From Kineococcus xinjiangensis (GTDB lineage Bacteria; Actinomycetota; Actinomycetes; Actinomycetales; Kineococcaceae): a stretch of DNA of 64,000 bases. The notes beneath the pieces were generated by a model, which was not told the DNA's origin, did not search any database, and worked only from the letters and a program-made list of their open reading frames with translations. The translations under genes and the position numbers were made by a program. The first letter of the stretch is position 1. Every line of letters starts with the position of its first letter. Positions 18,985 through 43,251 of this stretch are shown here, piece by piece. The stretch is taken from positions 89,988 to 153,987 of the forward strand of contig NZ_PTJD01000011.1 of assembly GCF_002934625.1 (NCBI RefSeq), given 5' to 3'.

Positions 18985-19050
18985 CCCCCGGAAAGGACCC
19001 TTTCCGGGGTCAGGGGCCTCGTTCCGGCCCCGGAAAGGGTCCTTTCCGCG
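18985..19050. repeat. dyad element 1 (paired 16-bp cores)
   Basis: Cores GGAAAGGACCCTTTCC (18990-19005) and GGAAAGGGTCCTTTCC (19032-19047) face each other 42 bp apart. Perfect arms extend 21 nt (18989-19009 and 19028-19048). It is the only copy in a divergent gap (between a HAD gene and the AbiEi-like gene). Confidence 0.9.
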
Positions 19051-19172
19051 GGAAGGGCCGGAGCGGGAACGGGCGGGCCGGGACGCCGTCCACAGCCCGG
19101 CCGGGAGCTGCGCAGTGCACAGCGCCCCGCACGCGGCCCACCGCGGGGCCCTGCAGCGGGCAGCGTGCGGGC

Positions 19173-20045
19173 GTGCGCACCCCGCTCCCCGCAGACCTCC
19201 CCCGCGTGTTCCGCGGAGCCGACGCCGTCGCCCACGGTGCCCTCACCGAGGAGCAGCTGCGCGGGCCCGCGGTCCAGCGCGTCCTCCGCGGCGTGTACGC
19301 CCGCTCCGGCACCGCCCTCACCCACGACGTGCGGTGCGAGGCGACCGGGCTGCTGCTGCCTCCCGGCGCCCTCGTCACCGGCCGGTCCGCGGCCACCGTG
19401 CGGGGAGTGCCACTGGCCCGCCGGCAGGACCCGGTCGAGGTCCTCGTCCCGGAGCAGCCCCTGCGGCGCCTGCCCTCCGGGGTGCTGGTCCGCCGCTGCC
19501 GCTCGCTGCCCGCGGGCGAGCCGTGGGGGAGCACCGCCCTGGCACCCCCGCTGCGGATGGCCTTCGACCTGACGGCGCGGCACCCGCTGCCGGCGGCGGT
19601 GGGGCACCTGGACGCGGTGGTGCGCGCCGGGCTGGTGGACCTCGACGCCCTGCACGCCTGGCTGGTGGGGGCCCGTGGCCCGGGGGTGCGCGCCGCCCGG
19701 CACGCGGCGCAGCTCTGCGACCCGCGGGCGGAGTCGCCGCCCGAGTCGGCGGTGCGCGTGCACTGCGTCGAGGCGGGGCTGGCCGTGACGCCGCAGGTCG
19801 TGGTCCGCGACCGCGGGTGCTTCGTGGCGCGGGTGGACCTGGCGGTCGACGGCACGCAGGTGGCCGTGCAGTACGACGGGCAGTGGCACGCGTTGCGCGA
19901 GCAGCTCGAGGCGGACCGCCGGCAGTTGCGGGAGCTGCGCGAGGCCGGGTGGGAGGTCGTCCACGTCACGGTGGCGCTGCGGCGCGAGCCCGACACCCTC
20001 GTCGCCGCCGTCCACGCGGCCATCGCCCGGCAGGTGCGGCGCTGA
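19173..20045 (+). CDS. AbiEi-antitoxin-like N-terminus fused to a DUF559/Vsr-like nuclease domain
   Basis: 290 residues from the GTG at 19173, where the conserved sequence begins. The N-terminal half (FRGADAVAHGALTEEQLRG...VQRVLRGVYAR, then ALVTGRSAATVRGVPL) is the winged-helix and following domain seen in AbiEi-type antitoxin relatives. The C-terminal part has PESAVRVHCVEAGL, ARVDLAVDGTQVAVQYDG and a final EVVHVT strand, the Vsr/DUF559 PD-(D/E)xK pattern. Such fusions are frequent in actinobacteria and usually unassigned. No AbiEii toxin is adjacent. The gene is bracketed by dyad elements 1 and 2, about 1.07 kb apart. Confidence 0.75.
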   Translation: MRTPLPADLPRVFRGADAVAHGALTEEQLRGPAVQRVLRGVYARSGTALTHDVRCEATGLLLPPGALVTGRSAATVRGVPLARRQDPVEVLVPEQPLRRLPSGVLVRRCRSLPAGEPWGSTALAPPLRMAFDLTARHPLPAAVGHLDAVVRAGLVDLDALHAWLVGARGPGVRAARHAAQLCDPRAESPPESAVRVHCVEAGLAVTPQVVVRDRGCFVARVDLAVDGTQVAVQYDGQWHALREQLEADRRQLRELREAGWEVVHVTVALRREPDTLVAAVHAAIARQVRR

Positions 20046-20054
20046 GCCCACCTC

Positions 20055-20120
20055 CCCCGGAAAGGACCCTTTCCGGGGTCGGGAGCACCTCCGCGACCCC
20101 GGAAAGGGTCCTTTCCGGGG
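20055..20120. repeat. dyad element 2 (paired 16-bp cores)
   Basis: Cores at 20059-20074 and 20101-20116, 42 bp apart. Arms are perfectly complementary over 27 nt (20055-20081 and 20094-20120) with a 12-nt loop. It begins 10 nt after the stop codon of the AbiEi-like gene. Confidence 0.92.
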
Positions 20121-20166
20121 GAAGGGCGGGGGCGGGCGGGGAAGGGCGGGGGCGGGGCGCGCAGGG

Positions 20167-20207
20167 TTGACAGCGGGTGCGCCGCTCTGGTCATGTTTGC
20201 GTTAACA
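20167..20207 (+). promoter_or_regulatory. promoter with LacI-type operator upstream of the GH43 gene
   Basis: TTGACA at 20167-20172 is followed about 18 nt later by a weak -10 (around 20191-20197). Overlapping it is TGTTTGCGTTAACA (20194-20207), which matches the 14-bp CG-centred palindrome bound by LacI/GalR-family regulators except at two positions. A sugar-responsive repressor is plausible for a secreted glycosidase; no LacI gene lies in the window. Confidence 0.55.
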
Positions 20208-20310
20208 TCCCGGGTCGCGGTGGCCCCGGCGGGCACTGGTGCGCGCCCTCGACACGGCCGCGCGAGCCGGGAGGTCCCACCGTCGTGACCTCACCCCTGG
20301 AGAGTCGCCC

Positions 20311-22593
20311 ATGCCCTCCCACCCCAGCCCCGCCGCACCCGCGCGCCGGGCGCCGGCCCTGCTCCGCAGGGGCACCTGCGGAGCCACCCTCGCGGCGCTC
20401 GCACTGACGCTGCTCGCAGCGCCCGGCCCCGCAGCCGCCGCACCGGAGGCGCCCGACGACGGCCTCGTCGTGGAGTACGAGCTCGACGAGACCGGGGGCA
20501 CCACCGTCGCCGACACCTCCGGCAACGGCCGCCACGGCACCGTCAGCGGCGACGCCACCTGGCTGGGCGGGGACGGGCTGGCCCTCGGCGGCGTCAACGG
20601 CCACGTCCGGCTGCCGAACGACGTCCTGCGCGGGCTGAGCGACATCACCGTCTCCACCGAGGTGCGGATCGACCGCGACCAGCCGGGCCCGTACTTCATC
20701 TGGGGCCTGGGCAACACGACCGACTGGTACGGCGACGGCTACCTGTTCACGACCGGGAACTCGTACCGCACGTCCATCGCCACGGGGAACTGGTCCACGG
20801 AGCAGACCGTCAGCGCCGGGCGGGACCTGGCGCGCGAGACCTGGAAGACGCTGACCTACACCCTCAGCGACGGCACGGCCGTGCTCTACGAGGACGGCGT
20901 GGAGGTCGGGCGGCAGAGCGGCATCACCATCACCCCCGGCATGATCGGCGGCGGGCGCACCACGGCGAACTACCTCGGGCGGTCGAACTACACCCCGGAC
21001 AAGCACCTCAAGGGCCAGGTCCGCGACTTCCGCATCTACGACCGGGCGCTGTCCTCGGACGAGGTGCGCCGCCTCGGGCCGCTCAGCGACGAGGAGCGCG
21101 TCGCGGGCGACCTCGCGGCACTCGACCTGGGGAACACCTCCGCCGTCACCGGGAACCTCGGCCTGCCCGCGACGGGCGCGAACGGCACCCGGCTGACGTG
21201 GGCGTCCAGCGACCCGGCGGTGGTCTCCACCACCGGGGCGGTGACCCGCCCGCGCCACGGCGCCGGCGACGCCACCGTCACCCTCACCGTCACCTCCACC
21301 ATCGGCACGACCTCCTCGAGCAGGAGCTTCACCGTGCGGGTCCTGCAGAACATCAGCGACGAGCAGAAGGTCCGCGAGGCCGCGGCCGACCTCGTGGTGT
21401 GGGACGCCGCGGCGGTGCGCGGGAACCTCACCCTGCCCACGACGGGCCTGCACGGCACGAGCATCCGGTGGGAGTCCGGCGACCCCGGCGTCGTCACCAC
21501 CACCGGCGAGGTGCGGCGCCCCGCCGCCGGCCGGGAGCGGGTGCGGCTGAACCTGCACGCCTTCGTCAGCCTCGGCAAGACGAAGGTGAAGCGCACGTTC
21601 CGCGTCACGGTCCTGCCCCTGCCGAAGCAGGAGCCGATGGAGGGCTACGCGTTCGCCTACTTCGCGGGTGAGGGCTACGCCGACGGGGAGCAGGTGTACT
21701 TCGCCGCCAGCCGCGGCAACGACGCGCTGCACTGGGACGAGCTCAACGGCGGCGAGCCGGTCCTGCGGTCGACGTTCGGCGACCAGGGGGTGCGCGACCC
21801 GTTCATCATCCGCTCCCCCGAGGGCGACAAGTTCTACCTCATCGCCACCGACCTGAAGATCCACGGCAACGGCAACTGGGACGCCGCCCAGCGCACCGGC
21901 TCCAAGCACATCGAGGTCTGGGAGTCGACCGACCTCGTGAACTGGTCCGAGCAGCGCCACGTGCGGGTGGCGCCGGACACGGCGGGCAACACGTGGGCAC
22001 CGGAGGCGTACTACGACGACCGGATCGGCGCGTACGTGGTGTTCTGGGCGTCGAAGCTGTACGCCGCGGACGACCCGAACCACACCGGCAACACCCACAA
22101 CCGCATGGTGTACGTGACGACCCGGGACTTCCGGACGTTCTCCGAGCCGAAGGTCTGGATCGACCCCGGGTACTCGGTCATCGACTCCACCGTCATCAAG
22201 CACGGCGACACCTACCACCGCATCACCAAGGACGAGCGCAGCGCCGCACCGGACGCCCCGTGCGGCAAGTTCCTGGTGCAGGAGAAGTCGACCGACCTGC
22301 TCGACACGTCGTGGGACTTCGTCTCGGAGTGCATCGGCAAGTCCGTGCCGGGCAACCCGGGCGTCCGTCAGGGTGAGGGCCCGACGGTGTTCAAGTCGAA
22401 CACCGAGGACAAGTGGTACCTGTTCATCGACGAGTTCGGCGGCCGGGGCTACGTGCCCTTCGAGACGACCGACCTCGACTCCGGGACGTGGACGCTCGCG
22501 AGCGACTACCAGCTCCCCAGCAGGCCCCGCCACGGCACCGTCGTGCCCGTGACGAAGGCCGAGCTCGAGCGGCTGCGCGCCGCCCTGGGCTGA
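20311..22593 (+). CDS. secreted LamG-containing glycoside hydrolase family 43 protein
   Basis: 760 residues from the ATG at 20311 (GGAGAG site upstream). A signal peptide ends near AAA-APEA. A LamG/concanavalin-like domain (about 48-245) contains VEYELDE-type and FRIYDRALSSDEV ends. Two Ig-like modules follow (about 255-350 and 352-445), each with a WxSxDPxVVxTTGxV signature. The C-terminal catalytic propeller (about 455-760) has RDPFIIRSPEGDKFYLIATDL, WAPEAYYD and GEGPTVFKS, typical of GH43 arabinan or xylan-debranching enzymes. It likely degrades plant-type arabinose-containing polysaccharides outside the cell. Confidence 0.87.
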   Translation: MPSHPSPAAPARRAPALLRRGTCGATLAALALTLLAAPGPAAAAPEAPDDGLVVEYELDETGGTTVADTSGNGRHGTVSGDATWLGGDGLALGGVNGHVRLPNDVLRGLSDITVSTEVRIDRDQPGPYFIWGLGNTTDWYGDGYLFTTGNSYRTSIATGNWSTEQTVSAGRDLARETWKTLTYTLSDGTAVLYEDGVEVGRQSGITITPGMIGGGRTTANYLGRSNYTPDKHLKGQVRDFRIYDRALSSDEVRRLGPLSDEERVAGDLAALDLGNTSAVTGNLGLPATGANGTRLTWASSDPAVVSTTGAVTRPRHGAGDATVTLTVTSTIGTTSSSRSFTVRVLQNISDEQKVREAAADLVVWDAAAVRGNLTLPTTGLHGTSIRWESGDPGVVTTTGEVRRPAAGRERVRLNLHAFVSLGKTKVKRTFRVTVLPLPKQEPMEGYAFAYFAGEGYADGEQVYFAASRGNDALHWDELNGGEPVLRSTFGDQGVRDPFIIRSPEGDKFYLIATDLKIHGNGNWDAAQRTGSKHIEVWESTDLVNWSEQRHVRVAPDTAGNTWAPEAYYDDRIGAYVVFWASKLYAADDPNHTGNTHNRMVYVTTRDFRTFSEPKVWIDPGYSVIDSTVIKHGDTYHRITKDERSAAPDAPCGKFLVQEKSTDLLDTSWDFVSECIGKSVPGNPGVRQGEGPTVFKSNTEDKWYLFIDEFGGRGYVPFETTDLDSGTWTLASDYQLPSRPRHGTVVPVTKAELERLRAALG

Positions 22594-22608
22594 CCCCGCC
22601 CGCACAGC

Positions 22609-22646
22609 ACGGGGGCCGTGCCGCGATCGCGCGGCACGGCCCCCGT
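22609..22646. terminator. bidirectional hairpin terminator between GH43 and serS
   Basis: A perfect 17-bp stem (22609-22625 and 22630-22646) with the loop ATCG, between convergent genes. GC-only stem without a clear T-tract. Confidence 0.75.
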
Positions 22647-22652
22647 CGCGTC

Positions 22653-22708
22653 CGGCGTCAGGACACCGGCGTCAGGACACCAGCGTCAGGACACCGGAGT
22701 CAGGACGT
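22653..22708. repeat. 14-bp tandem repeat running into the 3' end of serS
   Basis: Four copies of CGGCGTCAGGACAC, the third and fourth with one and two changes. The array covers the serS stop codon (22686-22688) and its last few codons, so the synthetase C-terminus (LTPVS) is encoded by repeat sequence. Confidence 0.85.
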
Positions 22709-23966
22709 CCAGCCCCAGGAACGGGCGCAGCGCCTCCGGAACCCGGACGGAACCGTCGGGGAGCTGGTGGTTCTCCAGGATCGCCACCAGCCAGCGCGTC
22801 GTCGCGAGCGTGCCGTTCAGGGTGGCGACCGGCCGCGTCCCGGCGGCGTCCTCGCCGGGGACCCGCTCCCGCACGTTCAGCCGCCGCGCCTGGAACGTCG
22901 TGCAGTTCGACGTCGACGACAGCTCCCGGTACGCCCCCTGCGACGGGATCCACGCCTCGCAGTCGTACTTGCGGGCGGCCGAGGACCCCAGGTCGCCCGC
23001 CGCGGTGTCGATGACCCGGTAGGGCACCTCCACCGCCGCGAGCATCTCCTCCTCCCACGCCAGCAGCCGCGCGTGCTCCTCGGCGGCGTCCTCGACGCGG
23101 CAGAAGGAGAACATCTCCACCTTGTGGAACTGGTGGACGCGGATGATGCCGCGGGTGTCCTTGCCGTGGGAGCCGGCCTCGCGCCGGTAGCAGGCCGACC
23201 AGCCGGCGTAGCGGCGCGGACCGGCGGACAGGTCGACGATCTCGTCGGCGTGGTAGCCGGCGAGCGCGACCTCCGAGGTGCCGGTCAGGTAGAGGTCGTC
23301 GGCCTCCAGCCGGTAGATCTCGCTGGCGTGGGCGCCGAGGAAGCCGGTGCCGGCCATGACCTCCGGCTTCACGAGCGTCGGCGTGATCATGGGGGTGAAG
23401 CCGGCTGCGACGGCCTTGGAGACGGCCAGGTTCAGCATCGCCAGCTCCAGGCGGGCGCCGACGCCGGTGAGGAAGTAGAAGCGGGAGCCGGAGACCTTCG
23501 CGCCGCGGGCGGTGTCGATCGCCGCGAGCGCCTCGCCGAGCTCCAGGTGGTCGCGCCAGCGCTCGAGCCCCTCGGGCAGCTCGGGCACCCGCCCGACGTG
23601 GCGCAGCACCACGTAGTCGTCCTCCCCGCCGGCGGGGACGCCCTCCTCGACGACGTTGGGGATGCGGCGCAGCAGCTCCTCGAACTCCACCGCCGCCGCG
23701 TCGGAGGCGGCCTGCGCGGCCTTGACGCGCTCGGCGAGCTCCTTGACCGCGGCCAGCAGGGCCTGCTTCTCGTCCCCCTTCGCCTTCGCGACGTCCTTGC
23801 CGCGGCTCTTCTGCTCGGCACGCAGCCGCTCGAACTCGGCGATGGTCTCGCGACGGCGCACGTCGGCGGCGAGCACCGCGTCGACGACTCCCTCGTCCTC
23901 ACCGCGGGCGCGCTGGCTGGCGCGGACCGCGTCCGGGTTGTCCCTCAGCAGGCGCAGGTCGATCAC
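22686..23966 (-). CDS. serS: seryl-tRNA synthetase
   Basis: 426 residues, the normal family length, from a GTG. The N-terminal tRNA-binding coiled-coil arm (about 28-105) is clear. The class II catalytic core carries motif 1 around [23 protein letters not shown], motif 2 [26 protein letters not shown] and motif 3 [18 protein letters not shown]. It charges tRNA-Ser (and tRNA-Sec where present) in the cytoplasm. The extreme C-terminus overlaps a 14-bp tandem repeat. Confidence 0.97.
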
Positions 23967-23975
23967 CCGACGACC

Positions 23976-25472
23976 CTACCGAGTCACCGCCTCGCGGTCG
24001 GGGCTCGAGGAGGGCACCGCGGCGACGACGGTGCACGCCCGCCCGGCGTGCTTGGCGGCGTACAGGGCCTCGTCGGCGCGCCGCATCGCGTCCGCCGGCT
24101 CCTCACCGTCCGCCAGGACCGTGACGCCGATGGAGCAGGTCTGCCCCCGCGGAACCGCCTCGTGCACCGCGGACAGGTGCACCGCGGCCCGCTCGGCGTC
24201 GAGTCCGGGCAGCAGCACCGCGAACTCCTCCCCGCCCCAGCGCGCCAGGGTCACACCCCGTCCCAGCGCCGCCGTCCACGCGACGGCGGCCTCGCGCAGC
24301 AGGTCGTCGCCCGCGTCGTGGCCGAAGCTGTCGTTGAACCGCTTGAAGTGGTCCAGGTCCAGCAGCGCCACCGCCAGCGGGGTGCCGTCCACCCGCGCGG
24401 CGGCGCTCGCCCGGGCCACGTGGAAGTCCCAGGTGCGGCGGTTCGCCAGCCCGGTGAGGGCGTCCGTGCGGGCCTGCACCGCCAGCTGCGCCGCCTGCTG
24501 CCGCAGCTGGCCCAGCAGGTCGTTCGTCCGCAGCGACACGAGCAGCACGAGGACGAGCGCCGCGCAGCCGAGGAGGACCGGGTGGGCCCGGTGGCCGAGC
24601 AGGCCCAGCGCGGCGCTGAGCCCGGAGGGCAGGGCGGCGGCCAGCGCCAGCACGAGCAGTCGCCGCGTCGTCAGGCCCGTCGGCCGCTCCGCCGTCGGCG
24701 GGGCGGGCAGCCGCACGGCCGAGGAGCAGCAGATCGCGACGCTGATGAGGCCCCGGGAGAGCAGCCAGCCGGTGGCGGCCCACGTCGAGGGCCCCCCGCT
24801 GCCGGCGAGGCGCTCGAGGTAGGAGGCGACGTCGGCGACGACGAGCACGCCGAGGCCCGCCAGCAGCAGGTGCGCGGCCGGGGCCCGGTGCCCGGGCAGG
24901 AGCACCGTGCGCGCCAGCACGTACACGATCCCGATGTCGGCGAGGGGGTAGAGCCCGGCGACGATGCGGTCCTGCAGCGGCATGTCGCTGTCCGCGAGGA
25001 GGGGGGCGACGAAGAAGGTCCCGAGCACCGCGGCGCAGCTGAGCGTGACGATGGCCGCGTCGAGGAGCGCCGCGCGACCACTGCGCCCCGTGGGCTGGCG
25101 CACCAGTGCCAGCACCCCGGCCAGGAGGACGGCGTAGCCGCTGAGGAAGAGGATCTCCGGGACCAGCCGGTGCCCGACGTCGACGCCCGTGAACGCCACG
25201 ATGAACGCGACCTCCGCGGTGAGGAACAGCCCCTGCGACGCGGCGAGCAGCGCCCACGGGCGGCGCCGGTCCCTCGGCAGCCGGCGCACCCCCACGACGG
25301 CGACGACGGCCATGAGCGTCGCCACGGCCAGGTAGAGGAGGACGGCCGGCGCCACTCCCCCGAACCCGCGCACCACCGCGTAGAGCGGGACGGGCAGCAG
25401 GCAGAGCGCCGCGGCGAGCCACGGCAGGGCGGGGCCGCGGCGCCGCCCAGGCGTGGTGCCCTCATCGACCAT
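23976..25472 (-). CDS. membrane diguanylate cyclase (GGDEF)
   Basis: 498 residues. About nine hydrophobic segments (residues 17-310) form an N-terminal membrane sensor of no named type. A GGDEF domain follows (about 330-485) with DALTGLANRR, the DLDHFKRFND metal/substrate region, and the active-site loop GGEEF. No RxxD inhibitory site is found five residues before GGEEF, unlike the second GGDEF protein in the window. It should make cyclic di-GMP in response to an unknown membrane signal. It lies only 9 nt upstream of serS on the same strand. Confidence 0.9.
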   Translation of the reverse strand: MVDEGTTPGRRRGPALPWLAAALCLLPVPLYAVVRGFGGVAPAVLLYLAVATLMAVVAVVGVRRLPRDRRRPWALLAASQGLFLTAEVAFIVAFTGVDVGHRLVPEILFLSGYAVLLAGVLALVRQPTGRSGRAALLDAAIVTLSCAAVLGTFFVAPLLADSDMPLQDRIVAGLYPLADIGIVYVLARTVLLPGHRAPAAHLLLAGLGVLVVADVASYLERLAGSGGPSTWAATGWLLSRGLISVAICCSSAVRLPAPPTAERPTGLTTRRLLVLALAAALPSGLSAALGLLGHRAHPVLLGCAALVLVLLVSLRTNDLLGQLRQQAAQLAVQARTDALTGLANRRTWDFHVARASAAARVDGTPLAVALLDLDHFKRFNDSFGHDAGDDLLREAAVAWTAALGRGVTLARWGGEEFAVLLPGLDAERAAVHLSAVHEAVPRGQTCSIGVTVLADGEEPADAMRRADEALYAAKHAGRACTVVAAVPSSSPDREAVTR

Positions 25473-25617
25473 GCCGTCGCATCGACCGCCGCGTCAGCCT
25501 GGTTGAGCGCGGGGCGCGGTGCGGGGGCGGACACCACCGCATCGGCGCAGCGCGGGCGGGCCACCGGCGGTGACCGCCGGTCGGGCGGGACCCCCCGCCG
25601 CCGGTACCGTCGTCGTC

Positions 25618-26709
25618 GTGAGCGGAGACCCGGGGACCCTTCTGCTGCTCGGGTTCCTCGTCCTGCTCGTGGTGATCGTCGTGGTGGCGGTCGCGGACAT
25701 GCGCCCCCGCACGCCCCGGACCCCGCCCCGGCCCGAGCCGATCTCGCCGCTGCCGTCCACGGGCAGGCGCCCGCAGGCCGCCGTGGTCGTCAACCCCACG
25801 AAGTTCCCGGGCGGCCTCGACACCCTGCACGCCGAGGTGGAGGCCACGTTCCTGTCCCGCGGCTGGTCCCCGCCGCTGTGGATGGAGACCACCGCCGAGG
25901 ACACCGGCCGGGGCCAGACGCGCACCGCCCTGGACGCGGGGGTGGACGTCGTGCTGGCCTGCGGCGGCGACGGCACCGTCCGCGCGGTGGGTGGGGCCCT
26001 GGCCGGGACGGGGGTGCCGCTGGGCCTGCTGCCCGCCGGGACCGGCAACCTCCTCGCCCGCAACCTCGACGTGCCCGTCGCCGACCTCGGCAGGGCGCTG
26101 GACGTCACCTTCACCGGCTCCGACCACGCGATCGACGTCGGGCGCATGCTCATCGACCGCTCCGGCCGCGACCGCGCGCCCGAGGAGCACGCCTTCCTGG
26201 TGATGGCCGGCATGGGCTTCGACGCGGCGGTGATGATCGGGGTGGAGGAGGTGCTCAAGGCCCGCATCGGCCCGGCTGCCTACGTGCTGTCCGGCCTCCA
26301 GGCGCTGCGGGGCCCGCAGACGAAGGTCCGCATCCAGGTGGACGACCGGAAGCCGATGACCCGGCGCATGCGGGCCGTGATCGTCGGCAACTGCGGACGG
26401 CTGGTGGGTGGGGTCGCGCTCATGCCGGCGGCGCGGGTGGACGACGGCTGGCTCGACGCGGTCGTGCTGTCCCCGCGAGGGATCGTGTCCTGGGCGGCGG
26501 TGACGTGGCAGGTGGTGACAGCCGCCCGCCGCGGCCACCCGCGGGTCGAGCACCTGCGCTGCCGGCGCCTGCAGGTGGTGAGCGCCTCCCCGACGGAGGT
26601 GCAGCTGGACGGCGACCCCCTCGGCGGTGCGCGGAGGCTCGTGGTGGAGGTCGATCCGGGCGCCCTGCTGGTGCGGGTCCCCGCGGCGCCCACCGGCGTC
26701 CGGCCCTGA
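25618..26709 (+). CDS. diacylglycerol kinase-family lipid kinase
   Basis: 363 residues from a GTG at 25618. A single N-terminal transmembrane segment (about 8-26) is followed by the DAGK catalytic domain: VVVNPTKF, the nucleotide-binding CGGDGTVRAV, GLLPAGTGNLLARNL, and a C-terminal beta domain ending LDGDPLGG. Enzymes of this family phosphorylate diacylglycerol, sphingoid bases or mannosylated lipids; the presence of a membrane anchor suggests a membrane lipid substrate. It converges with pheA, only 8 nt away. Confidence 0.88.
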   Translation: MSGDPGTLLLLGFLVLLVVIVVVAVADMRPRTPRTPPRPEPISPLPSTGRRPQAAVVVNPTKFPGGLDTLHAEVEATFLSRGWSPPLWMETTAEDTGRGQTRTALDAGVDVVLACGGDGTVRAVGGALAGTGVPLGLLPAGTGNLLARNLDVPVADLGRALDVTFTGSDHAIDVGRMLIDRSGRDRAPEEHAFLVMAGMGFDAAVMIGVEEVLKARIGPAAYVLSGLQALRGPQTKVRIQVDDRKPMTRRMRAVIVGNCGRLVGGVALMPAARVDDGWLDAVVLSPRGIVSWAAVTWQVVTAARRGHPRVEHLRCRRLQVVSASPTEVQLDGDPLGGARRLVVEVDPGALLVRVPAAPTGVRP

Positions 26710-26717
26710 CCCGCCGG

Positions 26718-27710: not shown

Positions 27711-27802
27711 GGGGGACGAGGCTAGCCGGACCTCCCGGCGGTGCCCGCAGGTTCGCGCCGCACCGGTCCCGGCCCCGGCGACGGAGCGGGGATCATGGAG
27801 CC

Positions 27803-29110: not shown

Positions 29111-29143
29111 GGTCGCCCGCATGACCGGCGCAGGTGCCCACCC

Positions 29144-31823: not shown

Positions 31824-32164
31824 GTCCACGCTCTCCGTCCGCTGCCGTCCTCTCGTCCCTGGACCGGGCTGCCCCGCCCGGTCGGTCGACGGCCCCGCTC
31901 CCGCGCCCACCGGGGGTGGCTGCGGGGTCGTGCCGGGCGTCGCACCCCCGATCCTCGCCGCAGGCCCGCCCGTGCGCACAGCCGGGGGGCGCAGGACCAC
32001 CGCATCGGCTCAGCGCCGGCCCCCGGCACCGCCCCGCGCGGGCTGCCCGTGCAGACCTTCGTGCAGACCCTCCAACGGAAAGGACCCTTTCCGTTGTCGA
32101 GATGACGTCTCGACAACGGAAAGGGTCCTTTCCGCGCGGTGTGCGGTGTCCGGGGAGCGCGGGC
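31824..32164. other. intergenic stretch upstream of cls with no supported gene
   Basis: 341 nt between cls and the WhiB-like gene, both on the minus strand. Apart from dyad element 3 near its right end it holds GC-rich sequence with only short shadow frames. It should include the cls promoter, but no convincing -35/-10 pair is visible. Confidence 0.6.
32076..32134. repeat. dyad element 3 (paired 16-bp cores)
   Basis: Cores at 32077-32092 and 32118-32133, 41 bp apart. The arms are perfectly complementary for 27 nt on each side of a 5-nt loop (32103-32107), but outside the cores the arm sequence (GTTGTCGAGA) differs from the other elements, indicating compensatory change. It lies about 30 nt beyond the stop codon of the WhiB gene (minus strand). 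Confidence 0.93.
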
Positions 32165-32473
32165 TCAGCCGGCGCGGCGGGTCAGACGCTCCTCGCGGCG
32201 GCGCTGCGACCACATGCGCTCGCGGTCCTCCTCCGTCAGTCCGCCCCACACCCCGTAGGGCTCGCGGTACTTCATGACGTGCTCGCGGCAGGCGTCGAGC
32301 ACGGGGCAGCGGTTGCACACGGCGACGGCTTCGGCGTCGCGCCGCTGGCGGGCTGCTCCGCGCTCCAGCTCCGGGTGGAAGAAGACCTCGGGGTCAGCGG
32401 CACGGCAGGCTCCGCGGAGTTGCCACTCCCACTGGTCGCTGGTGGGACGGAGCTGTCGGGACAGATCAGGCAC
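32165..32473 (-). CDS. whiB3: WhiB3/WhiD-type iron-sulfur transcription factor
   Basis: 102 residues from a GTG with AAGGGGGG upstream. The order matches WhiB3/WhiD: DQWEWQLRGACR, FFHPELERGAARQRRD, four cluster cysteines (one in GAC, then CNRCPVLDAC), EPYGVWGGLTEEDRE as the G[V/I]WGG turn, and a basic C-terminus. These proteins bind a 4Fe-4S cluster and the primary sigma factor, and govern redox response and sporulation-type differentiation. The upstream 72 nt (32474-32545) are AT-richer and probably hold its promoter. Confidence 0.9.
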   Translation of the reverse strand: MPDLSRQLRPTSDQWEWQLRGACRAADPEVFFHPELERGAARQRRDAEAVAVCNRCPVLDACREHVMKYREPYGVWGGLTEEDRERMWSQRRREERLTRRAG

Positions 32474-36176: not shown

Positions 36177-36303
36177 CGCGGGGCGCTACGGAGGGACGCG
36201 CCGTGCGCCGAACGGGGCACAGCGCCGCCCAACGCCAGCTCGGGTGGTGCACGCAGTGCGACCCTCGCCACGGCAGCCCGTCCGAACCACCCCAGGAGAC
36301 TCC

Positions 36304-36585: not shown

Positions 36586-36638
36586 CCGTTCCGCCCCTGT
36601 TCCGCACCGCCCGTTCCGTCCCGTCCCGGAGGCCCGTC

Positions 36639-37400
36639 GTGACCGAGACCCCCGCACCCCCGCGCCCCACGGGGGTCCGCACCGTCGCAGACGCCGGCGG
36701 GCGGGCGCGGTTCGAGGTGCCCTGGATGCGGCGTTCGGCCGTGCGCGCCGCCGCCACCGAGGAGGCCCTCGGCGCGGTGGCGGGGGTCCGCACCGCCCGG
36801 GCGCACCCGCTGACCGGCGGTGTCGTCGTCCACTACGACCCGGCCGTCACCGACGTCGCCACGCTGGCCGTGGTCCTCGAGCGGGCGGCGGCCGGTGCGG
36901 AGGCCGGCACGGAGGCGCCGCGGACCGAGCACCCGGCGGACGGCGAGGTCGACGCCCCGGAGCAGCCGGTCGGGGCGGTGGCCGCGGGTGCGCAGGTGGC
37001 GGGCGCCGTCGCGCTGCGGGACCGGGCGGCCTTCGAGCTGGCGCGCGCGACCGCCCTCCCCCGCTCGGAGCTGGCGGCGCTGGACGTGTCGGACGTGCAC
37101 TGCGACGACACCGGGCTGCTCGTGCTGGTGCGGCGTCCCGGCAGCCCCGTGGAGGTCCGCGTGCTGCGCACCGAGCCCGGCGGCGATGCGGCGGTGGATG
37201 CCGTGGAGGCGTGGTGGGAGCGGCGGGCGGCGGCCGGCTCCGGGCTGGGTCCCCTGTTCCCCGCGCTGACCGCGGCGGGGCGGCTGCGCGCGCCGGAGCA
37301 GGGTGGTTCGCGCCTGTCCGCCACCGCGCTGCGCCGGATCGTGGTGTCGGTGGCCGCACGGCTGGGGGCGAAAGCTCCCGCGGAGCAGCCCCGGGGGTGA
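36639..37400 (+). CDS. hybrid of CtpC-like N-terminal (HMA-type) domain and degenerate tyrosine-recombinase-like region
   Basis: 253 residues from a GTG. Residues about 15-88 (ADAGGRARFEVPWMRRSAVRAAATEEAL...TGGVVVHYDPAVTDVATL) resemble the N-terminus of the mycobacterial metal ATPase CtpC; no CxxC metal motif is present. After a Glu/Ala linker, residues about 125-245 (LRDRAAFELARATALPRSELAALDVSDV...AWWERR...LFPALTAAGR...LSATALRRIVVSVAARLG) follow the first half of a XerC/D-type recombinase catalytic domain. The usual catalytic Arg position appears as Pro, and the HxLRH and Tyr parts are absent. No P-ATPase body remains. It lies 53 nt after the DUF1490 gene. Function unknown. Confidence 0.6.
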   Translation: MTETPAPPRPTGVRTVADAGGRARFEVPWMRRSAVRAAATEEALGAVAGVRTARAHPLTGGVVVHYDPAVTDVATLAVVLERAAAGAEAGTEAPRTEHPADGEVDAPEQPVGAVAAGAQVAGAVALRDRAAFELARATALPRSELAALDVSDVHCDDTGLLVLVRRPGSPVEVRVLRTEPGGDAAVDAVEAWWERRAAAGSGLGPLFPALTAAGRLRAPEQGGSRLSATALRRIVVSVAARLGAKAPAEQPRG

Positions 37401-37409
37401 CCCCGGAAC

Positions 37410-38606
37410 TCACCTCCGCGGCGGGGGTCCGGGTGTGAGTCGGGTGGGGCCGGCCTCCTGCGGGCGGGGCCTGTCCTCCGGGTGGGCGCGCACGGCGAGG
37501 ACGGCGACGTCGTCCTCGGGATCCTCACCCAGCACGGCGCCGAGGACCCCGTCGAGGAGCTGCGCCAGGGGCTGCCCGGCCCGGGCCGCGAGCTCGCGGG
37601 CGAGGAGCGCGACACCCGCCTCCAGGGTCGCGTCACGGCGCTCCACGAGGCCGTCGGTGTAGAGCAGCAGCGTCGATCCGGGTGGCAGCTCGCACGTGCC
37701 GTCCTCCCGCACGGCGTCCGGGTCCACCCCCAGCATCAGGTCGGGCTCGCCGTCGAGGACCTCCACGCGCCCGTCGGCGTGCAGCAGCAGCGGGGGCGGG
37801 TGCCCGGCGTTGGACCAGCGCAGGCGCCGCAGCCCCCGCGCGCGGTCCTCGGCGGTCTGCTCGACGCGGGCGACGACGGCCGTGGCCAGCACGTCGAGGC
37901 CGAGGACCTGGACGGAGCGCTCGAGGCGGCACAGGAGCGCCGAGGGGGGTTCGGGGCGGTCGACGGCGTAGGCGCGCAGCATGGCCCGCACCTGCCCCAT
38001 GTCGGCCGCGGCGCCCACGTCGTGGCCCATGACGTCGCCGATGACGAGCGTGGTGCCGCTGTCGGCGACGACGGCGTCGTACCAGTCGCCGCCCACCTGG
38101 TCGCCGGAGCTGGCGGGCAGGTAGCGGCAGGCCAGCTCCAGGTGGTCCGGCTGGGGCAGCTCGGTGAGCATCGCCGCCTGCAGGGTGCGCGCGGCCTCGC
38201 GGCGGTCCTGCAGCTGCGCTGCGTGGCGGATGCGCACGTGCGCCACCCAGACGGCGAGCACCGCGCCGAGGGCGACGACGGAGACGCGGGTGGCGGCGGG
38301 CAGGGTGTGGACGTCGTCGACGGCGACGAGCAGCCACGCCACCGCCACCGCGAGGACGCCGACGCCGAGGGTCTGCCGGCGGGTGCCTCCCGCCCCGGTC
38401 AGTGCCGGGGCGAGCGCGAGGGTGCCGGCGATGTTCGTGGCGGAGGGGGGCTCGTCGTCGACCACGGACACGGCCACGACGTCCACCACCGCGAGCAGCG
38501 CGACGACGGAGGCCCCGAGCAGGGGCCAGAGGGAGCCGCCGCTGCCGGTGCCCGGGCGACGGGACGCGCGTGCGCGCCTCCGGCCGGGTCGTCCTGGCGT
38601 GGTCAT
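37410..38606 (-). CDS. membrane PP2C-type (SpoIIE) serine phosphatase
   Basis: 398 residues from the ATG at 38606. Four or five hydrophobic segments (about 22-130) are followed by a short linker and a SpoIIE catalytic domain (about 165-380) with SSGDQVGGDWYDA, GDVMGHDVGAAADM, NAGHPPPLLL, LLYTDGLVERR and EDDVAVLAVR, which carry the metal-binding aspartates. Such RsbU/SpoIIE-like phosphatases dephosphorylate anti-anti-sigma factors to activate stress sigma factors. No STAS or RsbW gene is nearby. It diverges from znuA. Confidence 0.9.
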   Translation of the reverse strand: MTTPGRPGRRRARASRRPGTGSGGSLWPLLGASVVALLAVVDVVAVSVVDDEPPSATNIAGTLALAPALTGAGGTRRQTLGVGVLAVAVAWLLVAVDDVHTLPAATRVSVVALGAVLAVWVAHVRIRHAAQLQDRREAARTLQAAMLTELPQPDHLELACRYLPASSGDQVGGDWYDAVVADSGTTLVIGDVMGHDVGAAADMGQVRAMLRAYAVDRPEPPSALLCRLERSVQVLGLDVLATAVVARVEQTAEDRARGLRRLRWSNAGHPPPLLLHADGRVEVLDGEPDLMLGVDPDAVREDGTCELPPGSTLLLYTDGLVERRDATLEAGVALLARELAARAGQPLAQLLDGVLGAVLGEDPEDDVAVLAVRAHPEDRPRPQEAGPTRLTPGPPPRR

Positions 38607-38756
38607 GGCGCACTTCCGTCGGCGAGGCGGGGAGGGCACCTCGGTCCGGACCCTCCGTTCCGTGATCTGGACTCTAAGTGACGGGCGGCTCGCGGGTCGC
38701 CGATCCCGGCAGGACGCCGGGGCGGGGCATCTCGGATGACCGGCCACGCCCTATGC

Positions 38757-38775
38757 TGTTGGTAATCGTTCCCTG
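38757..38775 (+). promoter_or_regulatory. possible Zur-type operator upstream of znuA
   Basis: TGTTGGTAATCGTTCCCTG contains the imperfect palindrome GGTAATCGTTCC, 17 nt before the start codon of znuA, just after TATGCT (38752-38757), a reasonable -10. Zinc importers are usually repressed by Zur at such sites. The match is judged by eye against the general A/T-core palindrome form of Zur boxes. Confidence 0.4.
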
Positions 38776-38791
38776 TAGTGAGGATGCGCCG

Positions 38792-39847
38792 ATGACCTCC
38801 CCCGCCCCCCGTCGTCGCCGCGCCGCCGCGGCGACGGCGCTCACCACCGCCCTGGTGCTCGGTGCGAGCGCGTGCGGCGGCGCGGGGAGCGACCCCGCCA
38901 CCGCAGCCGGCGAGGGTCCCGCGGAGGACTCGACGCTGTCGGTGGTGGCCTCCACCGACGTCTACGGCGACATCGCGAGGGCCATCGCGGGCGAGCGCGC
39001 CGAGGTCGTCTCGATCATCGACGACCCGGCCCAGGACCCGCACTCCTACGAGGCGAGCACCCGCGACCAGCTCGCGGTCAAGCGCGCCGACGTCGTCATC
39101 GCCAACGGCGGCGGCTACGACCCCTACATGGACGCCATGCTCGACGCCGTCGGGCGCGACGGCAGGACGGTCATCACGGCCGTCGACCTCTTCGACGGCG
39201 GCGAGCACGCCGGGGGCGAGCACGCCGCCGAGGGCCACGCCGGGGGCGAGCACGCCGGGGACGAGCACGCCGAGGAGACCGCCGACGCCGCGGCGGAGGA
39301 CGAGCACGGCCACGGACACGGCGGCGTCAACGAGCACGTCTGGTACGACCTCGACACCGCCCAGCACGTCGCCGAGGAGCTCGTCGGGGCCCTCTCCGCA
39401 GCCTCCCCCGAGGACGCCGCGACCTTCGAGGCCAACGGCGAGGCCTTCGCCGAGCGCATCGCCGGGCTGCTGGCCCGCCAGGAGGAGCTGCGCGCCACCA
39501 CGCAGGGCAAGGGCGTCGCCGTGACCGAGCCCCTGCCCGTCCACATGCTCGCGGCCCTCGACATGGTCGACCGCACCCCCGCGGAGTTCAGCGAGTCCAT
39601 GGAGGAGGGCAGCGACGTCTCCCCCGCCGTCCTCCAGGAGACCCTGACCGTGCTCGGGTCCGGACAGGTGGCCGTCCTCGTGTACAACGAGCAGACGTCC
39701 GGCGCGCAGACCGAGCAGGTGGAGGAGGCGGCCCGCGAAGCCGGCGTGCCCGTCGTCCCGGTCACCGAGACGCTCCCCGACGGCAAGGACTACGCGACGT
39801 GGATGAGCGACACCCTGACCGCCCTCGAGGAGGCGCTGACGCCGTGA
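38792..39847 (+). CDS. znuA: zinc ABC transporter substrate-binding lipoprotein
   Basis: 351 residues from an ATG with GAGGATG upstream. Lipoprotein signal with lipobox LGASACGG. The mature domain has VVASTDVYGDIARAI, the metal-ligand region DPAQDPHSYEAS, and a long His/Asp/Glu-rich loop (about residues 135-180; HAGGEHAAEGHAGGEH and DEHGHGHGGVNEHVWYD) typical of zinc-specific members. It collects Zn2+ (possibly Mn2+) outside the membrane for the ABC importer encoded next. Confidence 0.92.
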   Translation: MTSPAPRRRRAAAATALTTALVLGASACGGAGSDPATAAGEGPAEDSTLSVVASTDVYGDIARAIAGERAEVVSIIDDPAQDPHSYEASTRDQLAVKRADVVIANGGGYDPYMDAMLDAVGRDGRTVITAVDLFDGGEHAGGEHAAEGHAGGEHAGDEHAEETADAAAEDEHGHGHGGVNEHVWYDLDTAQHVAEELVGALSAASPEDAATFEANGEAFAERIAGLLARQEELRATTQGKGVAVTEPLPVHMLAALDMVDRTPAEFSESMEEGSDVSPAVLQETLTVLGSGQVAVLVYNEQTSGAQTEQVEEAAREAGVPVVPVTETLPDGKDYATWMSDTLTALEEALTP

Positions 39848-40731
39848 GGGCGGACCCGCTGAGCGCCGCTCCCGCGGGCGCCACCACCGCCGCGCCCGCG
39901 CCCGCGCCGGGCCCACCCGGCCCCAGCGCCCTCAGCCTGCGCGGCGCCACCCTGCGCTACGGCTCCCGCGCCGTGTGGAGCGACCTGGACCTGGACGTGG
40001 CACCGGGGGAGTTCCTCGCCGTCCTCGGCGCCAACGGCTCCGGCAAGACCAGCCTCCTGCGCGTCCTCCTCGGCCAGCAGGCCCTCGCCACCGGCAGCGC
40101 CACCATCGCCGGACGCCCCGTGCGCCGCGGTGGCCGGGGGATCGGCTACGTCCCGCAGCAGAAGGGGCTCGACCCCACCACCCCCCTGCGGGCCCGCGAC
40201 TTCGTCCGCCTCGGCATCGACGGCCACCGGTGGGGTCCCTGGCTGCCCAGCCGCTCCGCCACCCTGCGCGTCGACGCCGCCCTCGCCGCCGTCGGCGCCA
40301 CCGGCTACGCCCGCACCCCCGTCGGCACGCTCTCCGGCGGGGAGCAGCAGCGCCTGCGCATCGCCCAGGCGCTCATCACCGACCCCGCCGTCCTGCTGTG
40401 CGACGAGCCGCTGCTGTCGCTGGACCTGCACCACCAGCAGTCCGTCAGCGCCCTCATCGACCGCCGGCGCCGGGAGAGCGGGGCGGCGGTGCTGTTCGTC
40501 ACCCACGACATCAACCCCGTCCTCCCCTACGTGGACCGGGTGCTCTACCTCGCCGCCGGCCGCTTCCGCGTCGGCCCGCCCGAGGAGGTCATGACCAGCG
40601 CGGTGCTGTCGGAGCTGTACGGCTCCCCCGTGGAGGTCGTGCACTCCGGCGGCCGGCTCATCGTCGTGGGCGGCGCCGCCCCCTCGGAGCACCCGCACTG
40701 CGGCGCCCACGACGAGGGACGGGTCGCGTGA
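39844..40731 (+). CDS. znuC: zinc ABC transporter ATP-binding protein
   Basis: 295 residues from a GTG overlapping znuA by 4 nt. After an Ala/Pro-rich extension of about 30 residues the ATPase has Walker A GANGSGKTS, Q-loop VPQQKGL, signature LSGGEQQRLRIAQAL, Walker B VLLCDEPLLSLD and switch His in FVTHDIN. The C-terminus carries His/Cys (SEHPHCGAHDEG), which might bind metal. It powers Zn2+ uptake with znuB. Confidence 0.93.
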   Translation: MRADPLSAAPAGATTAAPAPAPGPPGPSALSLRGATLRYGSRAVWSDLDLDVAPGEFLAVLGANGSGKTSLLRVLLGQQALATGSATIAGRPVRRGGRGIGYVPQQKGLDPTTPLRARDFVRLGIDGHRWGPWLPSRSATLRVDAALAAVGATGYARTPVGTLSGGEQQRLRIAQALITDPAVLLCDEPLLSLDLHHQQSVSALIDRRRRESGAAVLFVTHDINPVLPYVDRVLYLAAGRFRVGPPEEVMTSAVLSELYGSPVEVVHSGGRLIVVGGAAPSEHPHCGAHDEGRVA

Positions 40732-41621
40732 TCCGGCTGGCCGTGGACTCCCCCGGCGGGATCCTCCGCTCGATCGTGGACTTCTCCGACTACGGCGAGC
40801 TGCTGCCGCTGGTGCAGAACTCCCTGCTCGCGGGGGCGCTGCTCGGCCTGGTCGGCGGGCTCGTCGGCGTGATCGTCCTGGCGCGGGACCTGCCCTTCGC
40901 GGTGCACGGCATCAGCGAGCTGTCGTTCGCGGGTGCGGCGGCGGCGCTGCTGCTGGGCGCCGACGTGGTGCTCGGCTCGGTGGTCGGCTCGATCGTCGCC
41001 GCGGTGCTGCTGGGGGTGATGGGCGTGCGCGCCCGGGACCGCAACTCGGCCATCGGCGTCCTCATGCCGTTCGGCCTCGGCCTCGGCGTGCTGTTCCTCG
41101 CCCTCTACCCGGGGCGCTCGGCGAACAAGTTCGGCCTGCTCACGGGGCAGGTGGTGGCGGTGGACGACCCGCAGCTGCACTGGCTGGCGGGCATCTCCGT
41201 GGTGGTGGTGCTGGCCCTGGCGGTGGCCTGGCGGCCGCTGCTGTTCGCCAGCCTCGACCCGGAGGTGGCGGCGGCGCGCGGGGTGCCGGTGCGGGCCCTG
41301 GCCCCGGCGTTCATGGTGGTGCTGGGCCTGGCCGTGGCGATGTCGGTGCAGGTGGTCGGCGCGCTGCTGGTGCTGGCGCTGCTGGTGACCCCGGCGGCGG
41401 CGGCGGTGCGGGTGAGCGCCTCCCCCGTGCTGGTGCCCGTGCTGAGCGTGGCGTTCGCGCTGACGGCGATGCTGGGCGGCATCCTGCTCGCCCTGGGGTC
41501 GCGGGTGCCGATCAGCCCGTACGTGACGACGGTGTCCTTCCTCATCTACCTGGTGTGCCGGCTGGTGGGTGCCCGGCGCCTGCGCAGGGCGCGCCGCACT
41601 CCCGCCCTCCAGCCCGCCTGA
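40728..41621 (+). CDS. znuB: zinc ABC transporter permease
   Basis: 297 residues from the GTG overlapping znuC by 4 nt; the open frame is longer upstream but that part is the shadow of znuC. Eight or nine transmembrane helices of the ABC-3 permease family with LLGLVGGLVGVIVLARDLPF, HGISELSFAGAAAAL, and FASLDPEVAAARGVPVRAL, the coupling loop that contacts the ATPase. It completes the ZnuABC importer. Confidence 0.93.
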   Translation: MIRLAVDSPGGILRSIVDFSDYGELLPLVQNSLLAGALLGLVGGLVGVIVLARDLPFAVHGISELSFAGAAAALLLGADVVLGSVVGSIVAAVLLGVMGVRARDRNSAIGVLMPFGLGLGVLFLALYPGRSANKFGLLTGQVVAVDDPQLHWLAGISVVVVLALAVAWRPLLFASLDPEVAAARGVPVRALAPAFMVVLGLAVAMSVQVVGALLVLALLVTPAAAAVRVSASPVLVPVLSVAFALTAMLGGILLALGSRVPISPYVTTVSFLIYLVCRLVGARRLRRARRTPALQPA

Positions 41622-41644
41622 CGGGCGCCGCCCCCGCTCGTCGC

Positions 41645-41660
41645 GGAAAGGACCCTTTCC
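41645..41660. repeat. dyad element 4 (single 16-bp core)
   Basis: One core GGAAAGGACCCTTTCC, 24 nt after the znuB stop. The expected second core about 42 bp to the right is missing; that position is occupied by a short tandem repeat. Confidence 0.8.
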
Positions 41661-41725
41661 GTGGTCCGGGCTGGTCCGGGCTGGTCCGGGGTTGGTCTCG
41701 GGCTGGTCCGGGCTGGTCCGGGGGC
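41661..41725. repeat. 10-bp tandem repeat
   Basis: About six imperfect copies of GGGCTGGTCC directly after the single dyad core and before the MSMEG_6728-family gene. Confidence 0.75.
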
Positions 41726-41756
41726 GGGCGGGCCCGGCCCCGGGCAGGGTGGCGGG

Positions 41757-42659
41757 GTGCAGACGTTCCTCCCCTACCCGGACTTCGCCCGCAGCGCCGC
41801 CGTGCTGGATGCGCCGCGGCTGGGCAAGCAGCGGGTGGAGACGCTGCAGGTGCTGCGGGCCCTGGAGCTGCCCGACTACGGCTGGGCCAACCACCCGGCG
41901 GTGCGCATGTGGCGGGGCTGCACGCCGGCGCTGGTGAGCTACGGCCTGGCGTGCGTGGAGGCGTGGTCGCGCGCCGGGCACGCCGACTCCACCCGGCGGC
42001 TGATCGCGGAGTTCGCCCCCGAGGTGGTGGGCCGGGAGCAGCGGGAGCTGGCCGACGAGGGGCTGATGCCGGTGTGGCTGGGCGACGAGCGGGTCCACGC
42101 CAGCCACCGCTCGAAGCTGCTGCAGAAGGCCCCGGAGCTCTACCGGCCGCTGTTCGGGCAGGACGAGCCCGACGACCTGGACTACTTCTGGCCCGAGCCG
42201 GGGCCGCCGCCCCGGGTCGGCGAGCGCGGCGGGCGGCCGGTGTGGGTGGTCCGGCCGGACGGGCCCGCGGACCTCGCGGCGTTCCTCACCGAGGGCGTGG
42301 TGGGGTTGGGGGCCGGCTCCGGCATCGACTGCGACGCCTCCGGCCTCGACGACGACGGGCTGCGGGCACTGCTGCGGGAGCGCGCCCCGGGGCGGCGGCC
42401 GGGCAAGGAGCTGCGCCAGCTCGCCGGCTTCGTGCGGGAGCTCACGCCCGGCGACGAGGTGGCCGTCCCGATCGAGGGCGAGCGCGCCCTGCTCCTCGGC
42501 GAGGTCGTCGGCGCCTACCGCTTCGCCGACCCCCGCACGGGACCCCCGCCGCACCGGCGGGCGGTGCGCTGGCTGGGCCGGGCGGAGCGCTCCGACGTCG
42601 TCCCGCCGGCCGCCCTGCAGGATCCCCGCTCGCTCTTCGTCGTGCTCGTGGACCTCTGA
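41757..42659 (+). CDS. MSMEG_6728-family (pyrimidine-dimer-glycosylase-like) domain fused to a second DNA-related domain
   Basis: 300 residues from the GTG at 41757, where the conserved start QTFLPYPDFARSAAVLD appears; the upstream frame is tandem repeat. Residues 1-145 (LGKQRVETLQVLRAL, YGWANHPAVRMWRG, HASHRSKLLQKAPELY) match the MSMEG_6728 family, related by annotation to T4 endonuclease V-type enzymes. Residues about 160-300 form a separate domain (VWVVRPDGPADLAAFLTEGVVGLG...GDEVAVPIEGERALLLGEVVGAYRF...HRRAVRWL), reminiscent of the PUA/EVE-like or Mrr-N-type modules that read modified bases. A repair or restriction role is inferred. Confidence 0.72.
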   Translation: MQTFLPYPDFARSAAVLDAPRLGKQRVETLQVLRALELPDYGWANHPAVRMWRGCTPALVSYGLACVEAWSRAGHADSTRRLIAEFAPEVVGREQRELADEGLMPVWLGDERVHASHRSKLLQKAPELYRPLFGQDEPDDLDYFWPEPGPPPRVGERGGRPVWVVRPDGPADLAAFLTEGVVGLGAGSGIDCDASGLDDDGLRALLRERAPGRRPGKELRQLAGFVRELTPGDEVAVPIEGERALLLGEVVGAYRFADPRTGPPPHRRAVRWLGRAERSDVVPPAALQDPRSLFVVLVDL

Positions 42660-42720
42660 GCCGAACGAGTGAGGAGGTCACGAAGAGCGTCCGCTCCAGC
42701 ACCTCGCGCACGGGGTAGCG

Positions 42721-42903
42721 CTGTGCTAGCGTCCAGTTGGCTGCAGCTAGCGCAGCTCCTCGATCGTTTCGTACGCCCGCGGAGTGTGTTGCGGGCGTCA
42801 TCTGCACTCGGTATACGGCCGGGAGCAGAGTGGCGAACCCACTCAGCCCGGAGCCGCAGAAGGCGCGGCTCTGAATACCGACCGGCAAGACATGGAGAAA
42901 CGC
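42721..42903 (+). promoter_or_regulatory. promoter and structured leader of the cold-shock gene
   Basis: About 180 nt of non-coding sequence precede the cold-shock gene. The segment contains direct GCTAGCG repeats (about 42725 and 42746), a 7-bp hairpin at 42774-42797 and another 7-bp hairpin at 42851-42871 (GAGCCGC/GCGGCTC). Long structured 5' leaders are typical of csp mRNAs, whose translation depends on temperature. The exact promoter is not clear. Confidence 0.5.
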
Positions 42904-43107
42904 ATGGCTCAGGGCACCGTCAAGTGGTTCAACGCCGAAAAGGGCTTCGGCTTCATCGAGCAGGACGGCGGAGGCCCCGACGTCTTCGTCCACTACTCCG
43001 CCATCACCGGCAACGGCTACCGCTCCCTCGAGGAGAACCAGCGCGTCGAGTTCGAGGTGACGCAGGGTCAGAAGGGCCCGCAGGCCGACCAGGTGCGCGC
43101 GATCTGA
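42904..43107 (+). CDS. cspA: CspA-family cold-shock protein
   Basis: 67 residues from the ATG with GGAGAAA 4 nt upstream. It carries RNP1 KGFGFIEQ and RNP2-like DVFVHYSAI, the nucleic-acid-binding motifs of a single cold-shock domain, and the initial [11 protein letters not shown] signature. It acts as an RNA chaperone. It is the sole gene of its transcript: a long leader precedes it and a strong terminator follows. Confidence 0.97.
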
Positions 43108-43122
43108 CGATCCGCTTCCACG

Positions 43123-43156
43123 CAGAGGGCCCCGTCCACCAGGACGGGGCCCTCTG
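43123..43156 (+). terminator. terminator of the cold-shock gene
   Basis: Perfect 15-bp stem (43123-43137 with 43142-43156) and a 4-nt loop, 16 nt after the stop codon. GC-rich with no long T-tract. Confidence 0.85.
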
Positions 43157-43185
43157 TCATTCCCGGCCCCCTCCCCCGGACCCCT

Positions 43186-43251
43186 CCCCGGAAAGGACCC
43201 TTTCCGGGGTCGAACCGGCAGGCCGCACCCCGGAAAGGGTCCTTTCCGGGG
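43186..43251. repeat. dyad element 5 (paired 16-bp cores)
   Basis: Cores at 43190-43205 and 43232-43247, 42 bp apart, with perfect 25-nt arms (43186-43210 and 43227-43251). It ends 18 nt before the stop codon of the minus-strand FetB-like gene and follows the csp terminator. Confidence 0.92.

Follow-up and report, generated by a model that had tools for sequence, protein, structure and literature searches.

The 64,000-nucleotide stretch of Kineococcus xinjiangensis DNA analysed here (assembly GCF_002934625.1, contig NZ_PTJD01000011.1, positions 89,988-153,987, or C11:89988-153987; hereafter the window) contains five copies of a short palindromic element. The host genome comprises 4.62 Mb in 42 contigs, labelled C1, C2 and so on, and C11 is 154 kb long. 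Four of the copies are doublets, in which a core with an AC centre is followed by an inverted core with a GT centre, and the fifth is a single core. The first doublet (18990..19047) occupies the divergent gap between a HAD hydrolase gene (18088-18903, minus strand) and an MTES_1575-like gene (19173-20045, plus strand), which is restriction-endonuclease-like by a Pfam match below the cut-off. The second (20059..20116) begins 13 nt past the stop codon of the MTES_1575-like gene. This gene sits between two elements. The third doublet (32077..32133), with a perfect 10-bp complementary inner arm, is 31 nt from the stop codon of a WhiB-like open reading frame (32165-32302, minus strand). The single core (41645..41660, plus strand) is located 23 nt past the stop codon of an ABC-3 permease gene (40728-41621, plus strand). 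It has no partner core with up to six mismatches at 36-47 bp on either side, and to its right there is a G-rich tandem array with a unit of about TGGTCCGGGC (41661..41720, plus strand, end approximate). The fourth doublet (43190..43247) lies between a CspA-like gene (42904-43107, plus strand) and a UPF0014 gene (43269-44018, minus strand), 21 nt from the stop codon of the latter. A terminator-like hairpin is predicted after the CspA-like gene (43122..43157, plus strand).

The initial annotation had described the nine cores of these copies, a spacing of 41-42 bp and a position just past a stop codon in four copies out of five, and it was right on all three. With up to three mismatches the core matches the window 18 times, as compared with a mean of 0.17 after shuffling. 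The cores of the four doublets are 42, 42, 41 and 42 bp apart, 42 bp being about four helical turns. The copy at 18990 is in the divergent gap; in each of the other four, a stop codon precedes the element by 13-31 nt.

The element is dispersed over the host genome. The exact 16-bp core occurs 61 times, and the same pattern read backward does not occur; with one mismatch allowed and the centre left free, the counts are 72 and 2. Among the matches listed there are 36 loci, which hold 70 of the 72 cores and one core with two mismatches (71 cores). Doublets or triplets make up 32 of these loci and single cores the other four. The repeat unit is about 22-24 bp long (CMCGGAAAGGACCCTTTCCGKGGT) and has a near-palindromic core with an asymmetric AC/GT centre, which is AC or GT in 70 of the 71 cores. 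The cores form 35 pairs, with a distance of 42 bp in 31 of them, 41 bp in three and 40 bp in one. The units face each other (AC/GT or AC/GC) in 24 pairs and point in the same direction in 10, and the sole GT/AC pair is at 41 bp. The pairs at 42 bp consist of 21 AC/GT, one AC/GC, five GT/GT and four AC/AC; this pitch is common to 22 of the 24 inverted and nine of the 10 same-direction pairs. In 22 aligned inverted copies, the conserved stretch begins about three bases to the left of the first core, ends with a T at position 21 and is then mirrored, and each of the spacer positions 22-37 carries 0.06-0.78 bits. The middle of the spacer is weakly conserved, slightly above shuffled spacers: identity over its 16 middle positions is 0.391, as compared with 0.335 (standard deviation 0.005) for letter-shuffled spacers and 0.986 for the AC cores.

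By our own codon-based gene calls, all 36 loci lie outside genes: 14 between convergent, 19 between co-directional and three between divergent neighbours. Random placement of 58 bp in the gaps of C11 would give 12% convergent (p 2.6e-5) and 43% divergent loci (p 1e-5). The element is nearer to a stop than to a start codon in 17 of the 19 co-directional loci, and where a stop codon is adjacent (33 loci), the nearest one is a median of 34 nt away. Gaps with the element are longer than gaps without it (medians of 161 and 47 bp for convergent gaps in C11, about 200 and 38-59 bp for co-directional and 269 and 218 bp for divergent gaps), which is partly expected because the element itself needs 58 bp. 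Neither spacing nor location is random genome-wide, and pairs are abundant outside the window, contrary to what the initial annotation had named as outcomes damaging to its proposal. The neighbours, 20 genes at 20 of the 25 loci outside C11 (not always the gene with the nearest stop codon; five of these genes have no match in Pfam) and 10 window proteins, belong to mixed families with no shared theme. Elsewhere in the window, positions 50004-52334 encode a 776-aa protein whose Pfam matches are coiled-coil families, one above the cut-off twice and most below it.

The doublet is lineage-restricted and is present in none of the other genomes searched. The 42-bp doublet with up to three mismatches was found in none of 38 relatives, 11 of which belong to the same family; the host has 31 and the backward control one. 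A 12-base part of the core, which occurs 62 times in the host, is absent from the 11 family members. No comparable family was seen in 400 kb of a sister genome, G004, where no near-palindrome occurs more than four times, as compared with 20 in C11. A scan of GTDB contigs (genome_contigs), in which the host's own record is possibly not included, gave no doublet with 24-28 bp between the cores. An origin from phages was rejected, as no record of viral_contigs has a doublet with 20-32 bp between the cores; so was a plasmid origin, since the nine plasmid records obtained at E up to 1 all show one 22-bp match within an unrelated multicopper oxidase gene. The single-core pattern has one match in genome_contigs, just before a tRNA-like sequence in a Phycisphaerae metagenome-assembled genome, and this was taken as chance. 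No known RNA family matches the window at the Rfam gathering score. The two 16-base core strings were not found in the papers searched, of which one, on a human gene, contains a 12-base part, and the titles and abstract beginnings of the best matches on Kineococcus palindromic repeats, actinobacterial repetitive extragenic palindromic (REP) sequences and miniature repeats hold no description of the element.

Two gaps indicate that the element is added DNA. The gap between the CspA-like and UPF0014 genes measures 161 bp in the host and contains both the terminator-like hairpin and the doublet. In the nine relatives with a fully readable gap it is 69-94 bp shorter (67-92 bp) and contains a hairpin of the same kind without the doublet. 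These nine, one of which has a second hairpin, were among 11 relatives compared; the gap of a tenth is part-masked (129 bp), and one has no UPF0014 match. At C10:120016, the gap of 288 bp in the host holds a hairpin like that of G004 and the element, and the gap in G004 is at most 134 bp. Because both gaps are longer than in the relatives and the hairpin is present besides the element, the latter is regarded as added DNA, and it probably arrived by insertion rather than being built up in place. At C2:320829, the gap in G004 holds a short open frame instead of the element.

The flanks of the element are polar. At all 36 loci, and in all four arrangements of the neighbouring genes, they are rich in C on the left and in G on the right. 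The skew remains in 33 left and 35 right flanks when the 5 nt adjoining the core are left out, and it dies away over about 70 bp; gene ends free of the element have none (39 of 79 positive). G-quadruplex-type motifs are present on the outward strand of 32 of the 72 flanks and on the inward strand of none. With flanks taken separately, tandem repeats occur in 28 of the 36 loci, as compared with 52 of 122 other gaps. Three same-direction loci have a spacer similar to the flank next to it (identity of 0.73-0.81, as compared with 0.19-0.60 in the other pairs), and there the second core looks as if it were the product of a local 42-bp duplication. Locus L067 (3061-3180) carries a 21-bp perfect direct repeat, near the left end of the element and flush with its right end, which is the longest among the 36 loci.

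The four window doublets are predicted to fold stably, with z scores of -6.6 to -12.1. At locus L089 (3081-3177), two adjoining hairpins, each centred on one core, are predicted rather than one long hairpin. The initial annotation had reported arms that differ between copies and are complementary within a copy, and had taken this covariation as a sign of selection for a DNA/RNA structure or a dimer-binding site. Such complementarity is not general; long perfect arms around one core are seen in a minority of the copies. The outer arms and the arms of the first core are no more complementary within a copy than across copies. The same is true of the inner arms when aligned without gaps (z -0.5); with gaps z rises to 2.6, and it is -0.1 beyond the conserved GGGGTC/GACCCC ends. 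Copy 32077 is the only one of 35 with a 10-bp perfect inner run. The arms of the second core exceed the cross-copy level (z 3.0 with gaps; beyond the first 4 nt, 2.3 without and 0.2 with gaps), because a few copies have long perfect arms: perfect runs of at least 8 bp beside the second core are found in 6 of 35 pairs, as compared with 5 of 1190 cross-copy combinations. In the 22 aligned copies, two-sided changes are seen at 6 of the 24 base pairs of the long-range stem, as compared with 4.0 after shuffling (a value of six being reached in 5 of 500 shuffles), and local core stems have none. At locus L066 (3100-3157) both cores have changed at the long-range paired positions 12 and 47 (T-A to C-G), the sole two-sided change inside the cores of these copies. 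Covariation is thus weak evidence for an RNA structure, and a sequence-specific reading of the cores fits the complementarity and covariation numbers better.

The loci are distributed unevenly. Contig C11 holds 11 of the 36 in 3.3% of the genome (p 1.6e-8), and after removal of the window, which had been chosen for these copies, the remaining 90 kb still hold 6 of 31 loci in 2.0% of the genome (p 2.9e-5). The dnaA gene is on C9, and the order along the chromosome was approximated from the sister genome G004, over 800 kb on either side of dnaA (1.6 Mb). There, 36 of the 51 C11 genes with a match are placed on the same side of dnaA, at a distance of 286-479 kb. No good match exists in that stretch for any locus on C1, C4 or C6, for one of the two on C8, or for L074 (C3) and L086 (C10). 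As these may be distant or simply not conserved, a concentration of loci on the origin side is only suggestive.

The reading that we favour, with a probability of about 0.46, is that the element is a lineage-restricted, non-autonomous, hairpin-forming mobile DNA resembling REPINs (REP doublets forming hairpins), likely spread by a putative enzyme that would move it. The doublet, as single-stranded DNA or RNA, is predicted to fold back into a long stem. Copies would have come by insertion of extra DNA and would persist where they are least harmful, in the stretch that separates a stop codon from the following gene, and the cores are presumably conserved for a protein that recognises them. Slippage at the hairpin may account for the polar, G-rich tandem arrays to the left and right of the element.

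To our knowledge, known REPINs depend on REP-associated tyrosine transposases (RAYTs), and the element differs from them in this respect: the RAYT domain (Y1_Tnp, PF01797), which the initial annotation had suggested looking for, has no match in the host genome, where five candidates were scored, and has one in 5 of 14 control genomes. A RAYT-driven REPIN was therefore rejected. The suggestion of a REP-like element is supported in anatomy and location. Like the REPINs of Pseudomonas and others, the element is mostly an inverted doublet of a short palindrome with a diverse spacer and a predicted hairpin; it is extragenic, lies mostly past stop codons, and is rare in divergent gaps. It differs from REPINs in its near-invariant core, undecayed single cores and one dominant pitch. 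With the REP sequences and bacterial interspersed mosaic elements (BIMEs) of Escherichia coli it shares palindromic units that lie outside genes and are arranged alternately or in tandem, and it differs from them in sequence, in the weakly conserved spacer, in having no detected RAYT and in that the doublet is not seen in relatives. The published facts cited in these comparisons come from excerpts of PMC3116915, PMC8049555, PMC2817692, PMC3733652 and PMC4726725. In these excerpts, REPs are described as lying mostly between unidirectional and convergent genes, downstream of genes (PMC3733652), and the units of BIMEs as being in alternating or tandem order (PMC2817692).

Several observations weigh against a REPIN-like element besides the negative RAYT search. 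The excerpts include an end tag of the GTAG or CGTC type in the definition of a REP (PMC3733652, PMC2817692), and no such tag was seen in the per-position composition of 22 copies over 40 bp on each side. With neither RAYT nor tag found, the element is REPIN-like in anatomy and not a member of the known REP/RAYT families. Its roughly 71 cores in 36 loci are below the usual copy number of REPs, given as more than 100 (PMC2817692). REPIN singlets are described as decaying remnants (PMC3116915), and all four single cores, a small number, are exact matches. The two same-direction doublets that were folded gave z scores of -3.8 and -1.7 (the latter at L085), weaker than those of inverted doublets, and per base the most stable among 81 control gene ends is surpassed by only one of the 36 elements. 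No general target-site duplication was found: direct repeats of at least 12 bp in the flanks occur in 2 of the 36 loci and in 2 of 1260 cross-locus pairs. Finally, the three same-direction pairs that look locally duplicated keep the 42-bp pitch, which copying of a fixed element does not predict.

The most serious alternative, though on balance rather unlikely, is that the doublets are paired sites of a putative sequence-specific DNA-binding protein, with a dimer on each core and the two dimers on the same helical face. Protein binding, at nucleoid or gyrase sites, had been among the suggestions of the initial annotation. By analogy with SlmA and Noc, such a protein might give order to the chromosome or stop polymerases where genes end. 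The pitch common to inverted and same-direction pairs, the near-invariant cores without two-sided change in their local stems, the weakly conserved spacer, the clustering in C11 and the place of the matched C11 genes on one side of dnaA in G004 all agree with it. The asymmetric centre is not something that a symmetric dimer needs, however, the flank skew and the outward tandem arrays are left unexplained, and the placement near the origin depends on the gene order of a proxy genome within 800 kb of dnaA on either side. According to an excerpt (PMC4726725), the sites of SlmA and Noc are palindromes and are underrepresented in the terminus regions. The element resembles them as dispersed palindromes that are uneven along the chromosome, here mainly through the cluster in C11, and it differs in being paired at a helical pitch, in lying outside genes and for the most part past stop codons, and in that its binding protein is only putative. 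A more novel reading is possible, if on balance rather unlikely: either a REPIN-like population kept by a non-RAYT enzyme, or a two-dimer chromosome-organising site with a four-turn pitch that is concentrated towards the origin. In this reading the hairpins or the bound protein would make replication slip and leave G-rich arrays pointing outward on both sides. The mobile-element and protein-site readings are not mutually exclusive, as recognition of the core would be required of a mover and of a bound protein alike. Chromosomal parS sites have a TGTTTCACGTGAAACA-like consensus and are found near dnaA. They were rejected as an identity of the element, as the cores differ from TGTTTCACGTGAAACA and four separate parS-like sites, with up to two mismatches to this consensus, are situated on C9 at 3-5 kb from dnaA.

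The initial annotation had also proposed transcription terminators. Bidirectional terminators or stabilisers of mRNA 3' ends, acting as RNA hairpins, would account for the position past stop codons, the very stable predicted folds of inverted doublets, the C-rich flank that precedes the hairpin read from either side and the two-sided changes in the long-range stem. The proposal is weakened by the terminator-like hairpins that exist besides the element at the CspA-UPF0014 gap and C10:120016, by the lack of a T-run (a T fraction of 0.06 in the 10 nt to the right of the cores at 36 loci) and by the weak covariation of the arms, and it now appears improbable. In addition, at loci between two plus-strand genes no neighbouring gene end faces the right flank, and the skew of this flank equals that seen in convergent loci. 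Once the element is masked, further hairpins of at least 8 bp are found at 1 of 43 gene ends, as compared with 8.1% of masked controls, a difference too weak to argue that the element substitutes for them. Recombination sites like the attC of a gene-cassette system, marking inserted genes, are far less probable still. Two genes, 39237-39617 of C11 and 19173-20045 of the window, are each located between two elements; within the 1.6 Mb of G004, both have their best match far away from where the neighbouring genes match, in the case of the latter as if it had moved. The former gene (locus L060, 601-1115; C11:39193-39707) encodes a 126-aa protein that is glyoxalase-like by eye. Where both flanking genes of a C11 gap are matched (proteins shorter than 80 aa excluded from all these counts), the neighbours are conserved at 0 of 6 element gaps and 23 of 37 others (p 0.006), the former count becoming 1 of 7 if the CspA-UPF0014 gap is included. 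The difference shrinks to 0 of 6 and 11 of 20 for gaps of at least 60 bp (p 0.024) and to 0 of 11 and 23 of 106 over all C11 gaps (p 0.12), and at 2 of the 25 loci outside C11 the neighbours are conserved. Moreover, the copies are dispersed rather than arrayed, the integron integrase model TIGR02249 has no match over the cut-off in the host, nor in any of the 14 controls, and nine weak tyrosine-recombinase matches are all below the cut-off.

The mobile, REPIN-like reading stands as the preferred one. A family of REPIN shape, with a dominant pitch and a core that hardly drifts, in a high-GC bacterium where the search for a RAYT was negative, would indicate either that another enzyme moves such elements or that selection acts on a paired protein site.

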